DNA of 33,983 bases. It comes from a bacterium (GTDB lineage: Bacteria; Patescibacteriota; Doudnabacteria; UBA920). The stretch covers positions 1 through 33,983 of the forward strand of contig JAJYWK010000066.1 of NCBI GenBank assembly GCA_021791515.1, given 5' to 3'. The notes beneath the pieces are model-generated. The model saw nothing but the letters and a program-made list of their open reading frames with translations. It had not been told where the DNA came from and did not search any database. This document shows positions 4,427-29,970 of this stretch, one piece after another; position 1 is the stretch's first letter, and each line of letters starts with the position of its first letter. The position numbers and the translations under genes were made by a program.

Positions 4427-4484
4427 ACAAATAGGACTTGTGCGCCGTATGCGACTGATAGGTCTTGTCTGAATAATATTTTCT

Positions 4485-4563
4485 GCCGACGTAGCTCAAC
4501 TAGTACCTGCCCGCAACGCCTCGCAAGCTCGGCTTGCGTGGCAGGCGGGGAGCAACGGTATCG
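4485..4563 (+). pseudogene. tRNA-Thr-like 5' half (copy A) interrupted in the D-loop by a palindrome
   Basis: GCCGACG-TA-GCTC-AACTAGTA [4506-4549 palindrome] GAGC-A-ACGGTATCG, ending within the anticodon and followed by CCGCCCG. Confidence 0.7.
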
Positions 4564-4607
4564 CCGCCCGCAACGACTTCGCGACTAATAATTTGATGTT
4601 TTATGTT

Positions 4608-4642
4608 GCCGGCTTAGCTCATCTGGTAGAGCAGTGGTATCG
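4608..4642 (+). pseudogene. tRNA-Thr-like 5' half (copy B)
   Basis: GCCGGCT-TA-GCTC-ATCTGGTA-GAGC-A-GTGGTATCG, then CCCC... Confidence 0.75.
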
Positions 4643-4660
4643 CCCCGTCGAATCTGATGC

Positions 4661-4736
4661 GCCGAGATAGCTCAATTGGTAGAGCAGCGGTATCGTAAAC
4701 CGCAGGTTGGAGGTTCGATTCCTCTTCTCGGCTCCA
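4661..4736 (+). tRNA. tRNA-Thr (CGT), intact
   Basis: Complete cloverleaf: GCCGAGA/TCTCGGC acceptor, anticodon stem GCGGT-ATCGTAA-ACCGC, T-arm GGAGG-TTCGATT-CCTCT, encoded CCA. Confidence 0.93.
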
Positions 4737-4748
4737 GATTCAACGGGG

Positions 4749-4835
4749 TAAATAAACCTCTATTTTAGGTTCAAGCTTGCCCCGTAGCGATTGAACGAAG
4801 CGAAATCTGCTACCGGGGTCCGACAGCCGGCTCCA
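4749..4835 (+). pseudogene. tRNA-Thr-like 3' half (copy B) with a palindrome (4780-4818) in the T-arm
   Basis: Starts TAAATAAACC; ends TCCGAC-AGCCGGC-T-CCA; AGCCGGC is the exact complement of copy B acceptor GCCGGCT. Confidence 0.6.
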
Positions 4836-4889
4836 TGAGACATTAAATATAATTATAATCTCATTAGGGTCGTTGCGAAGTCGGGCGGG

Positions 4890-4930
4890 TAAACCGTAGG
4901 TTAAGGGTTCAAATCCCTTCTTCGGCTCCA
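4890..4930 (+). pseudogene. tRNA-Thr-like 3' half (copy A)
   Basis: TAAACCGTAGGTTAAGGGTTCAAATCCCTTCTTCGGCTCCA, preceded by CGGGCGG, which complements CCGCCCG after the copy A 5' half. Confidence 0.7.
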
Positions 4931-4992
4931 GGCGATAGGCAGGCGGGGCAGCGGCAGCGGCCCCGAAGTACCTGCTTCGCAGGACTACGGGG

Positions 4993-5042
4993 TAAATATC
5001 GTAAACCGCGGGTTGGAGGTTCAATTCCTCTTCTCGGCTCCA
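4993..5042 (+). pseudogene. tRNA-Thr-like 3' half (copy D)
   Basis: TAAATATCGTAAACCGCGGGTTGGAGGTTCAATTCCTCTTCTCGGCTCCA directly after palindrome CCCCGAAGT...ACTACGGGG (4961-4992). Confidence 0.7.
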
Positions 5043-5054
5043 GAAAGTGTGGGG

Positions 5055-5100
5055 TAAAGTAAACCATAGGTTATCGGTTCAATTCCGATCGTCGGCTCCA
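5055..5100 (+). pseudogene. tRNA-Thr-like 3' half (copy E)
   Basis: GGGG|TAAAGTAAACCATAGGTTATCGGTTCAATTCCGATCGTCGGCTCCA. Confidence 0.7.
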
Positions 5101-5112
5101 CAAGCGACGGGG

Positions 5113-5170
5113 TAAACAGGTTGGAGGTTCCCTGCCTGCCGGCAGGCAGGAAGTCCGACAGTCGGCCACA
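5113..5170 (+). pseudogene. tRNA-Thr-like 3' half (copy F) with a palindrome in the T-loop
   Basis: GGGG|TAAACAGGTTGGAGGTTC[CCTGCCTGCCGGCAGGCAGG]AAGTCCGACAGTCGGC. Confidence 0.55.
5131..5150. repeat. Dispersed palindrome CCTGCCTGCCGGCAGGCAGG
   Basis: Perfect 20-bp palindrome; identical copies at 13767-13786 and 15418-15437. Confidence 0.95.
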
Positions 5171-5255
5171 GATTCAGCGAGGTAATAAACTGTGCCTAAA
5201 TTCGGATCTAGAACGAATTGGCGGAAAAAGTCAAGGCCTGAAAAAAACGCTAGTC

Positions 5256-5284
5256 TTGACAAAATTTAGAAAATTTCCTATTAT
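5256..5284 (+). promoter_or_regulatory. Sigma70-like promoter of the ATP synthase operon
   Basis: TTGACA - 17 nt - TATTAT, 18 nt before the first ORF of the operon. Confidence 0.7.
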
Positions 5285-5301
5285 TTAAGCGGAAAACTGG
5301 C

Positions 5302-14895: not shown

Positions 14896-14950
14896 TGCGG
14901 GATAGAGCAATTGGCATCCGCCTTAGGCGGATCATAACCCTCTAAGTAGT
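14896..14950 (+). pseudogene. Disrupted 5' copy of initiator tRNA-Met
   Basis: TGCGGGATAGAGCAATTGGCA[TCCGCCTTAGGCGGA]TCATAACC; the first 21 nt match the intact tRNA at 15192 except position 1. Confidence 0.8.
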
Positions 14951-15229
14951 ATGTTTGAGGTTTACGTAATCCAAAATCCTAAAGGCACTTTATACACCGG
15001 TTTTACCTCAAATCTGGCTGCCAGATTAGCTGAACACAATACTGGAAAACCTGGAAACTATACTTATAAGCGTGGTCCTTGGAAACTTATACATAAAGAA
15101 ATTTATGAGTTCAAAGACGAAGCTTCTAAAAGAGAAAAGTTCCTCAAATCAGGAAAGGGGAGAGAATTTATTAAAAGCTTCGTGATAATATCGCGGGATA
15201 GAGCAATTGGCAGCTCGCAAGGCTCATAA
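14951..15229 (+). CDS. Small GIY-YIG family nuclease; C-terminus runs into the tRNA
   Basis: 'VYVIQNPKGTLYTGFTSNLAARLAEHN', 'EASKREKFLKSGKGREFIKS'; stop TAA lies in the anticodon loop of the downstream initiator tRNA. Confidence 0.88.
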   Translation: MFEVYVIQNPKGTLYTGFTSNLAARLAEHNTGKPGNYTYKRGPWKLIHKEIYEFKDEASKREKFLKSGKGREFIKSFVIISRDRAIGSSQGS

Positions 15230-15267
15230 CCTTGAGGTTCCCGGTTCGAGTCCGGGTCCCGCAACCA
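15192..15267 (+). tRNA. Initiator tRNA-fMet (CAT)
   Basis: C1xA72 mismatch (CGCGGGA/TCCCGCA), anticodon loop CTCATAA, encoded ACCA; close to the E. coli tRNA-fMet layout. Confidence 0.93.
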
Positions 15268-15395: not shown

Positions 15396-15451
15396 GACGG
15401 GATAGCTCAGTTAGTTACCTGCCTGCCGGCAGGCAGGGATCGTGGGATTCA
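15396..15451 (+). pseudogene. tRNA-like 5' half with a palindrome in the D-loop
   Basis: GACGGGATAGCTCAGTTAGTTA[CCTGCCTGCCGGCAGGCAGG]GATCGTGGGATTCA, then GCCCGCACTAAATTT. Confidence 0.6.
15418..15437. repeat. Dispersed palindrome CCTGCCTGCCGGCAGGCAGG
   Basis: Third identical copy in the window, inside a tRNA D-loop. Confidence 0.95.
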
Positions 15452-15498
15452 GCCCGCACTAAATTTTTACAATCAATTTTCTACCGTGGTCTTTTGGG

Positions 15499-15575
15499 GC
15501 CGGAGTAGCTCAGTTAGTTAGAGCGTGGGACTCATAAGCCCAAGGTCAGAGGTGCAATTCCTCTCTCCGGCACCA
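15499..15575 (+). tRNA. tRNA-Met (CAT), elongator (tRNA-Ile2 not excluded)
   Basis: GCCGGAG/CTCCGGC acceptor, TGGGA-CTCATAA-GCCCA, AGAGG-TGCAATT-CCTCT, encoded CCA. Confidence 0.9.
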
Positions 15576-15614
15576 TGAGCCCGCGGTATGGATAGAAATT
15601 TAGTGCGGGCCGAG

Positions 15615-15655
15615 TAAGCCCAAGGTCAGAGGTGCAATTCCTCTCTCCGGCACCA
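15615..15655 (+). pseudogene. Exact 41-nt duplicate of the tRNA-Met(CAT) 3' half
   Basis: TAAGCCCAAGGTCAGAGGTGCAATTCCTCTCTCCGGCACCA, identical to 15535-15575. Confidence 0.9.
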
Positions 15656-15809: not shown

Positions 15810-15898
15810 GGGACCGTAGCTCAATTGGTTACCCGCCCGAACGTACCGCTCGGTACGGGCGGGGAGCACCCGCCTGTCACCAAAGAGGTTAAAAGCAA
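15810..15898 (+). pseudogene. Disrupted 5' copy of tRNA-Asp
   Basis: GGGACCGTAGCTCAATTGGTTA[15832-15863 palindrome]GAGCACCCGCCTGTCAC then CAAAGAGGTTAAAAGCAA; matches intact tRNA-Asp at 16134 outside the insert through the anticodon loop. Confidence 0.85.
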
Positions 15899-16156
15899 AT
15901 GTATACCGTATACGTATTAAAAGATAAGCTGGGAAACCTATATAAAGGCTTTACTAGCGATACCGAAAGGAGAATTAAAGAGCATAAATATGGCAAGACC
16001 AAAACGACCAGAAAAATGGAAAATCTTCAAATTATTTACACCGAAAACTTAAATTCCAGACTTGAGGCCAGAAAAAGAGAAAAATATTTAAAGTCAGCCG
16101 CAGGAAGAAGATTCCTAAAATCAATAGGTATATGGGACCGTAGCTCAATTGGTTAG
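15899..16156 (+). CDS. Small GIY-YIG family nuclease; C-terminus runs into tRNA-Asp
   Basis: 'VYVLKDKLGNLYKGFTSDTERRIKEHK', 'EARKREKYLKSAAGRRFLKS'; stop TAG lies in the tRNA-Asp D-loop. Confidence 0.88.
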   Translation: MYTVYVLKDKLGNLYKGFTSDTERRIKEHKYGKTKTTRKMENLQIIYTENLNSRLEARKREKYLKSAAGRRFLKSIGIWDRSSIG

Positions 16157-16210
16157 AGCACCCGCCTGTCACGCGGGAGGTTACGGGTTCGAGCCCCGCC
16201 GGTCCCGCCA
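16134..16210 (+). tRNA. tRNA-Asp (GTC)
   Basis: GGGACCG/CGGTCCC acceptor, CCCGC-CTGTCAC-GCGGG, encoded GCCA. Confidence 0.93.
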
Positions 16211-17724
16211 GATTTCCGCGCTGGAACTTGCATAGTTGCGAGAGAATTTGGAGCTTCAGCGCGAGAATCTTCCGAAACTTTTGAGGTTTGCAAATCTACA
16301 ATACAGTCAAACACTGGCGTCCATTTGGGCACCAGTTTTTGGTTTGTGTGGACGAAACCTTCAAAGCAGAGCTTAATGATGGTGCGTTTTTGCATGACGC
16401 CGGATTTTTCGTAAAGAAGGTCAGCGTGGTCGTTAAAATTCAGCAGGTCGTTGAATGCTTGCACAAACTTGTCGGACTGGCTTTCCAGGTCGGCCAGCCG
16501 CTCCTGGTAGACCTGCTTTTCCCGCAGCAGCTCGTCCTGTGCCTTCAGAAAAATCTCGGCATCGATTAACCTTTTGGATCGATCCATAACCAGATTGCGG
16601 ATCTGCTGCTGGATTTTGACCAGTTCCTGCTTAATGCTTTTACGCTCCAGTTCTTCGTTGGTCAGCCTCGTCTTGGCAAAGTGCTGAAAGTAGGCATCCA
16701 TAGTCTTCTTCATTTTGCCCGGCAGCTGCACCCGGGACAGGAAAGCCAAAACTTGCGGTTCGATTTCTGTATCTTTAGAGTACCGCTTTTCCGGACAATA
16801 AATGTCGCGCCTCTTGGTGCAGCTGTAATACAGGTGACCTTTTTTAAGTTGTCCCACCATAGCCGAGCCGCAGTGGCCGCAGCGGATGTAACCAGACAAG
16901 GGGTAAATGTGCTTGCGGGTGCGGTCTGCATAATGGTTTCTCTCCTGGATTTTTTCCTGCACGTCGTCAAACAACTTTTTGGAAATAAGTGTCGGAAAGC
17001 TGGCCTGGGCAGTGCCGTACGCTGTCTTTATAAGGCCGTAGTAGATGGGATTGCCCAAAATGTGCTCTATTGTCCTCCGGCCGACTGGTGTGCCGCCCCT
17101 TGCCCGAAAGCCCCGCTCGTTAAGCAGCACGGCCAATGCCTCATAGCCGTACTTGCCGGTGGCGTAAAGATCAAAGGCTTGTTTGACGAACTTTGCCCGG
17201 GTATGGTCTATGGTTAAAAGCTTGGTCTTTTTATCGTTAAGATAGCCAAGCGGCGCCACTCCCGGAAAGCGGCCGCGCTCTACCGCTTCTTTCAATCCCT
17301 TTTTAACCTCCCAACTGATGTTCTGGCTCGTCCACTGGGCAATCGATGCCATAATATTCTCCACCAACTCTCCGGAAAAGGATTCGTCAAACTGCTCAAC
17401 CACCGAAATGACCCTGACATCGTGCTTTTTAAGCATCATTTTAATGGCGGCGTAGTCAGCGACATTGCGGCAGAGCCTGTCCAGCTTATGGACTAAGATG
17501 ACATCGACCTTGTCGTCAATTTTTGCCCTGTGCAGCATTTTTTGCAGCTGCGGACGTTCGGCCGTCCTGGCCGATTCGCCGCGCTCCTCAAAAACATTCT
17601 CCGGCAAGGAATGCCAGGCATGCTCAGTGGCATACTTTTGGCAGGCTTTTATTTGCGCCGGAATGGATAATTCACGTTCTGCCTGCCGGGTCGTGGACAC
17701 CCGGCCGTAAATAAGGTAGTTCAT
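16153..17724 (-). CDS. Large serine recombinase/integrase
   Basis: 'YGRVSTTRQAERELSIPAQ', 'VHKLDRLCRN', recombinase domain, zinc ribbon 'CGHCGSAMVG...YYSCTKR...C'; C-terminal 'GGARTRNLPRDRRVL' is antisense tRNA-Asp. Confidence 0.93.
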   Translation of the reverse strand: MNYLIYGRVSTTRQAERELSIPAQIKACQKYATEHAWHSLPENVFEERGESARTAERPQLQKMLHRAKIDDKVDVILVHKLDRLCRNVADYAAIKMMLKKHDVRVISVVEQFDESFSGELVENIMASIAQWTSQNISWEVKKGLKEAVERGRFPGVAPLGYLNDKKTKLLTIDHTRAKFVKQAFDLYATGKYGYEALAVLLNERGFRARGGTPVGRRTIEHILGNPIYYGLIKTAYGTAQASFPTLISKKLFDDVQEKIQERNHYADRTRKHIYPLSGYIRCGHCGSAMVGQLKKGHLYYSCTKRRDIYCPEKRYSKDTEIEPQVLAFLSRVQLPGKMKKTMDAYFQHFAKTRLTNEELERKSIKQELVKIQQQIRNLVMDRSKRLIDAEIFLKAQDELLREKQVYQERLADLESQSDKFVQAFNDLLNFNDHADLLYEKSGVMQKRTIIKLCFEGFVHTNQKLVPKWTPVFDCIVDLQTSKVSEDSRAEAPNSLATMQVPARKSGGTGGARTRNLPRDRRVL

Positions 17725-29722: not shown

Positions 29723-29890
29723 AAACAAAAAGGCCCCCACCAGGAGCTCGACCCTTTCGGGCCGAACGCACGGGTTTCCCCATGCGACCAGCAAAGGAAC
29801 CCTGGCGAGGGTTTCTCTATCCTTTGCTGGTTTGGCTACCGGAGCAGCCAGTTGCCATGCCCGAAGCCTGTAAGGCCTGCGGGTTTAGGC
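29723..29890 (-). ncRNA. Candidate structured RNA/leader upstream of the 55-aa ORF
   Basis: Hairpins ACCAGCAAAGGA...TCCTTTGCTGGT, GGCTGC-TCCG-GTAGCC, CCCG...CGGG; ends GGGGGCCTTTTTG on the minus strand. Confidence 0.45.
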
Positions 29891-29970
29891 GAATTTAGTT
29901 GTTAACTTAATTTTAACACAAATCAGGTAAAATAAAAACGAATTTTTGGTAAAATTTTTTCAAAGTTATT

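Follow-up and report, generated by a model that had tools for sequence, protein, structure and literature searches.

Nested tRNA-Thr genes in a Doudnabacteria genome: a probable scar of homing elements that carry a rescue tRNA

Selfish endonuclease genes which supply a substitute for what they displace have been described in fungal mitochondria. In the mORFs of Allomyces (atp6) and Glomus (atp6, atp9, cox2 and nad3), a conserved gene has received an endonuclease gene along with foreign sequence that replaces the displaced part, and the native part stays in place and matches that of close relatives (PMC3630166). In phage T4, SegB, a small free-standing and intron-less GIY-YIG endonuclease encoded beside the phage tRNA genes, undergoes intronless homing via double-strand break repair (PMC2988022). 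Among the bacteria of the CPR, homing endonuclease insertions have been reported in rRNA genes; most are of the LAGLIDADG family and many occur as self-splicing introns, tRNA genes do not appear in the main text of this report, and GIY-YIG proteins are placed outside homing (PMC11270868). Finally, synthetic home-and-rescue gene drives have been engineered with Cas9 in insects; as described in one account, they provide a rescue copy of the essential gene that they cut (PMC7968924).

The locus described here, and the elements to which it appears related, would be closest in their working to the fungal mORFs with a replacement gene end and to T4 SegB. The mORFs, however, reside in mitochondrial protein genes and replace C-terminal ends, whereas bacterial tRNA genes are concerned here, with 5′ parts or whole tRNAs as replacement, palindromes at the split and nested rounds. 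SegB lies between phage tRNA genes and targets a tRNA intergenic region, in contrast to genes found inside a broken chromosomal tRNA gene and followed by a putative rescue copy. Like the rRNA insertions of the CPR, the present elements would place homing endonucleases within genes for structural RNAs, and this in the same bacterial group (PMC11270868). The likeness to home-and-rescue drives, as far as that account describes them, is one of working only, and the drive would here be natural (PMC7968924). In the open-access literature searched, no earlier description of a GIY-YIG gene lying within a bacterial tRNA gene was found.

The window, i.e., the whole stretch of DNA analyzed, comprises 33,983 nucleotides and is part of a draft genome of 1.17 Mb in 70 contigs. 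A sequence-only reading of this window had described an intact tRNA-Thr nested in a split tRNA-Thr (B), itself nested in another (A). This anatomy proved correct at base level, both in sequence and in coordinates (Table 1), but the limits given to the array (4485-4930) were too narrow, as three further 3′ relics follow. Besides its single intact gene, the array thus contains broken halves, two of the 5′ type and five of the 3′ type, and reaches about 5170-5185. The intact gene is the sole tRNA detected at this locus by ARAGORN and Rfam. Halves A and B both stop after ATCG and the 3′ halves restart with (G)TAAACC, so both splits do share a break between anticodon positions 35 and 36. The inverted repeats reported to bracket each split are also real: the inner arms CCCCGTCGAATCT/GATTCAACGGGG pair at -17.2 kcal/mol and the outer arms at -28.6 kcal/mol, and the complementarity of the flanks of the intact gene is equalled or exceeded in about 1 of 200 shuffles. 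Complementary acceptor halves had been claimed for A as well as for B. Those of B are indeed mutually complementary; in the 3′ half labelled A, the acceptor GCCGACG is perfectly complementary to CGTCGGC of relic D and pairs best with it, which makes the pairing of the outer halves uncertain.

Table 1. Coordinates of the features of the nested tRNA-Thr array and of the Met and Asp loci within the window.
Feature	Coordinates	Strand	Remark
Outer relic A, tRNA-Thr nt 1-21	4485..4505	+	resembles GCCGACC/GCCGAAG alleles of G003, G005
GC palindrome within D-loop of relic A	4506..4549	.	position as in 40 of 44 5′ relics elsewhere
Relic A, remainder of 5′ half, terminating ATCG^ (nt 35)	4550..4563	+	
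Outer inverted repeat, left arm	4564..4585	+	pairs with 4869-4888
Relic B, nt 1-35 of ancestral tRNA-Thr(CGT)	4608..4642	+	34/35 identity to gene of G001, G002, G004, G006
tRNA-carrying hairpin insert, left arm CCCCGTCGAATCT	4643..4655	+	
Intact cargo tRNA-Thr(CGT)	4661..4736	+	ARAGORN; Rfam RF00005, 69.4 bits
Right arm and TAAA end, GATTCAACGGGGTAAA	4737..4752	+	right end as in REP-like palindromes
Relic B, decayed anticodon stem to T-loop, restarting ^TAAACC	4753..4775	+	
CCCCGTAG..CTACCGGGG palindrome within T arm of relic B	4780..4818	.	
Relic B, 3′ end	4819..4835	+	17/17 against ancestral gene
Outer inverted repeat, right arm	4869..4888	+	pairs with 4564-4585
tRNA-Thr 3′ relic, labelled A in the earlier reading	4889..4930	+	
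REP-like palindrome with ACGGGGTAAA end	4961..4996	.	
Extra tRNA-Thr 3′ relic C	4998..5042	+	
Extra tRNA-Thr 3′ relic D	5059..5100	+	acceptor complementary to 5′ half of relic A
Extra 3′ relic E, ancestral-like	5113..5170	+	T-loop contains CCTGCCTGCCGGCAGGCAGG at 5131-5150
tRNA-Met 5′ relic	14896..14939	+	interrupted by palindrome TCCGCCTTAGGCGGA (14917-14931)
GIY-YIG endonuclease ORF, Met element	14951..15229	+	PF01541, E=1.6e-14
Intact tRNA-Met of endonuclease-bearing Met element	15192..15267	+	
Second tRNA-Met 5′ relic	15396..15451	+	D-loop palindrome 15418-15437
tRNA-Met hairpin insert, left arm GCCCGCACTAAATTT	15452..15466	+	right arm 15596-15610; inverted-repeat score 13.5, 0/200 shuffles
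Intact tRNA-Met inside hairpin insert	15499..15575	+	
tRNA-Met 3′ relic	15615..15655	+	
tRNA-Asp 5′ relic	15810..15879	+	15810-15831 and 15864-15879; D-loop palindrome 15832-15863
GIY-YIG endonuclease ORF, Asp element	15899..16156	+	PF01541, E=2.8e-11
Intact tRNA-Asp of Asp element	16134..16210	+	

Short palindromes interrupt several of the Thr relics themselves: A in its D-loop, B in its T arm (39 nt, within a 3′ half whose anticodon stem has decayed) and the last relic, E, in its T-loop; the palindrome CCTGCCTGCCGGCAGGCAGG of relic E recurs at the same place in a congener, G005. No GIY-YIG match was found between murI and atpI (4427-5301), and a Rfam scan of the window found no group I intron. 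Elsewhere in the window, a LOOT RNA (RF03000) lies at 29749-29891 on the minus strand, with 50.7 bits, over the gathering score.

Seven other genomes of the genus (G001 to G007) were examined upstream of atpB. Four of them (G001, G002, G004 and G006) have a single uninterrupted tRNA-Thr(CGT), identical in sequence, ahead of the ATP-synthase operon, and in three of the four (G001, G004 and G006) murI lies upstream of it. Half B matches this ancestral gene at 34 of 35 bases on the 5′ side and, at the 3′ end, at all 17. B is therefore the resident gene, into which the inner tRNA and its flanking arms were inserted. Relic B is in this respect like the retained native segment of the mORFs. Compared with the resident gene, the inner tRNA-Thr has 16 differences, distributed over the acceptor stem, the T arm and the D-loop, and none in the anticodon arm; it thus appears to be a diverged working allele and not a decayed copy, which again recalls the mORFs, where the carried segment is divergent yet intact by sequence. 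In G005, a different allele (GCCGAAG), which has TAAGTGACGGGGTAAA to its right, breaks the resident gene at the identical point of the anticodon, and G003 has only a GCCGACC allele, related to the kind carried in G005; the contig stretch examined in G007 carries no tRNA. Judging from these alleles, the relatives form a series which goes from the resident alone, to the resident broken around a newcomer, to the newcomer alone. The serial insertion at one precise site that had been proposed for this locus is hence supported twice, by the uninterrupted counterpart of half B in four relatives and by the insert of G005 at the same site. The nest of G005 is similar and occupies the syntenic position.

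Complementary arms at the break had suggested a parallel with the split tRNAs of Nanoarchaeum, which are joined in trans; here the complementary arms would hold the halves together, and the complementary acceptor halves of B would agree with this. This parallel did not survive closer scrutiny. The tRNA-splicing endonuclease is absent from the genome (PF01974 not found), the outer halves are decayed and contain extra palindromes, an intact gene of the same anticodon stands between them, and most congeners have one ordinary gene. We therefore regard trans-joining at this locus as extremely unlikely.

The Thr locus has counterparts in the same genome, where at least 13 tRNA genes are nested in relics of the same isotype. 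Besides Thr, they comprise Val-CAC, Pro-GGG, Pro-CGG, Ala-CGC, Ala-TGC, Arg-CCT, Arg-TCG (two), Arg-CCG, Gln-CTG, Leu-CAG, Leu-CAA and Met. Most of these nests take the form of a hairpin with ends like CCCC.../...CGGGGTRAA, the arm sequences being unrelated between loci. Here also, un-nested states are found in relatives: Arg-CCT corresponds to one plain gene in four of them, with the same neighboring genes, and the tRNA-Met at 15499 to one plain gene at the matching place in G002. The hairpin form is not confined to the genus: further genera and families of the order have it, and one of these families contributes a Russian-doll tRNA-Pro (L208). A draft genome in 70 contigs invites the suspicion of an assembly artefact, but similar nests occur in other species and genera whose genomes were assembled separately (the syntenic nest of G005 and the tRNA-Pro of L208), and the 80 endonuclease loci considered below, the best 80 of 199, stem from many projects, so that an artefact has next to no probability. 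A candidate Val nest of another genus (L218, on contig C99 of G042) was set aside as probably misbinned, since it is 99.93% identical over 1500 bp to the Val locus of the present genome. Downstream of a nested tRNA-Leu(CAA), an ORF which appears to resemble DUF559-type endonucleases was noted (L049, reverse complement, from about 660).

It could also be argued that the nesting is only apparent, tRNA genes having been duplicated in tandem and then fragmented by deletions and inserted palindromes. The many relics and extra 3′ halves of the Thr array would fit such a history, as would the Leu-CAA nest, in which the inner and outer copies are nearly identical. At the Thr locus, however, the outer halves agree with one another and with the ancestral gene, from which the inner gene departs at its 16 sites, and a single break point is used in two species; complementary arms flank the tRNA at many loci and, at others, an endonuclease gene occupies the gap. 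Such a history is thus very unlikely.

These endonuclease genes belong to elements of which the window contains two copies, one at tRNA-Met and one at tRNA-Asp (Table 1). In its full form, the element consists of a tRNA 5′ relic, a palindrome, a gene for a GIY-YIG endonuclease of about 85 residues and an intact tRNA, in this order. Excluding UvrC, 6 of the 13 GIY-YIG genes of this genome lie at 32-165 bp from an intact tRNA (P=1.2e-6), and about half have no detectable adjoining tRNA. A complete nest, in which a 5′ half, a GIY-YIG gene, an intact tRNA and a 3′ half follow each other, is plain for Gln in G001 and for Glu in G006. In the latter, the outer Glu matches the ordinary gene found in G000 and the inner one is a very different allele, a second likeness to the divergent yet intact segment carried by mORFs. 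Across nine of the proteins, the GIY-YIG motif residues Y, Y, G, R, H and E are invariant, and the nearest solved structures by sequence are UPF0213 proteins and the SLX1 endonuclease. The Asp element of G002 has a frameshifted endonuclease but has kept the relic, the palindrome and the intact tRNA, as a decaying homing element would. In the window, the 3′ half of tRNA-Asp is also overlapped by the 3′ end of a large serine recombinase gene (16153-17724, minus strand), which is probably a mobile element integrated at this tRNA.

With the Asp protein as single query, 199 relatives were recovered from 85,462 species genomes, and the best 80 of them were analyzed. An intact tRNA lies within 400 bp in 75 of these 80 loci, usually at less than 30 bp, and directly downstream on the same strand in 63. 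Bacteroidota make up most of the hosts of these best 80; the remainder comprises numerous Patescibacteria lineages as well as Planctomycetota, Nitrospirota, Ignavibacteriota and others. In phage and viral collections, one weak and one edge match were all that was found. Among those of the best 80 loci in which the gene lies upstream, a recognizable 5′ relic of the same isotype was found in 44. The split is marked by a GC palindrome in 40 of these 44 relics. For most isotypes it falls at nt 20-23, and for Leu at 14-15; the D-loop palindrome of Thr relic A has the same position as in these 40. The acceptor strands of carried and resident tRNA are identical in 40 of the 44. Recoding of the acceptor stem as a general immunity device, hinted at by Thr, Val and Glu, was rejected on account of these identical strands.

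In a tree of the endonucleases built on 82 columns, in which many forks are unresolved, the tRNA isotype changes 20 times, as compared with 35-45 times after shuffling; within Bacteroidota alone, 8 changes are counted against 17-22. In a Leu clade (SH-aLRT 98), sequences of Bacteroidota are intermingled with those of Saccharibacteria and several further Patescibacteria lineages. As far as this tree resolves, endonuclease phylogeny follows tRNA isotype more than host, and a phylogeny which tracks the target and not the host is a prediction of homing. Over ten pairs, dN/dS values of 0.05-0.16 indicate purifying selection on the endonucleases. The PF01541 domain, the insertion at or beside the target, the target-following phylogeny, and purifying selection alongside decayed copies are all features of free-standing GIY-YIG homing endonucleases, whose cutting and copying are predicted for the present proteins.

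Collectively, these data lead us to propose that the Thr locus is probably an endonuclease-less scar of serial insertions by tRNA-homing elements carrying a rescue tRNA. A full element would pair its free-standing GIY-YIG endonuclease with a substitute for the tRNA under attack, be it a new 5′ part or an entire tRNA, divergent but of the same isotype. The endonuclease would cut an element-free tRNA gene of the target isotype in the D-loop or the anticodon loop, and repair would copy the element in, the flanking tRNA halves serving as homology. The resident gene would be left as dead 5′ and 3′ relics while the carried tRNA keeps the cell alive. As each new round would break the current working copy or insert beside it, Russian dolls would arise. 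At the Thr locus, several rounds would have taken place, with the endonuclease genes since lost, or with mobilization in trans, leaving the hairpin-flanked rescue tRNA. No endonuclease ORF is present at this locus, and its membership in the GIY-YIG system would be a matter of shared architecture.

The main doubt of the homing model concerns the hairpin form. The ends of the hairpin arms (CCCC..ACGGGGTRAA) are common to REP-like palindromes located away from tRNA genes, so that a different enzyme may move this form. The hairpin-flanked tRNAs could thus be cassettes moved by a single-strand transposase of the REP/IS200-IS605 type (Y1/RAYT), or by another enzyme acting on CCCC..GGGGTRAA palindromes, which would insert into the loops of hairpins such as those of tRNAs, independently of GIY-YIG genes. 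The insert ends indeed match palindromes found genome-wide, ACGGGGTAAA occurring 36 times in the genome against 5 times for a reversed control. Palindromes sit at the loops of the tRNA relics, the 20-mer palindrome being found outside relics too, and hairpin-tRNA loci devoid of ORFs occur in other genera of the order. The genome also encodes three Y1 proteins (L029, L030 and L031), two of the IS200 type and one RAYT-like, the latter beside tRNA-Pro(TGG). Both IS200-type genes, however, have ends which differ from those of the hairpins and palindromes, and such a transposase leaves unexplained why the carried tRNA is always of the same isotype as the host gene and why a GIY-YIG gene is found within the same nests. 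Short genome-wide palindromes, which lie inside relics as well, are a trait shared with REP/RAYT systems, with the difference that whole tRNA genes are here carried in the loop. On balance, we consider movement by such an enzyme rather unlikely. The near-universal D-loop palindrome of the relics is not accounted for by simple homing; one possibility is that it destroys the putative cut site left in the relic. Away from tRNAs, palindrome-ended elements with interiors of about 100 nt, ending in TTCTAACGGGGTAAA or near variants, were observed at four loci (L037, L040, L045 and L046) and are possibly a further family of non-autonomous elements.

Beyond the Thr locus, the homing model would define a widespread and undescribed class of bacterial selfish elements, in which isotype-specific GIY-YIG endonucleases break tRNA genes and carry a rescue tRNA, a natural home-and-rescue drive which would turn over tRNA alleles and move tRNA genes between species. 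To this broader proposition we give an even chance. If it is true, the tRNA genes of many bacteria are repeatedly attacked by selfish endonucleases which survive only by carrying the cure. This would account for tRNA fragments, for the fast swapping of acceptor stems and for the numerous small GIY-YIG genes of Patescibacteria and Bacteroidota that still lack an explanation, and it would provide a natural counterpart to engineered home-and-rescue drives. For genome annotation, the lesson would be that a tRNA taken for "split", or an extra partial one, may be a homing scar.
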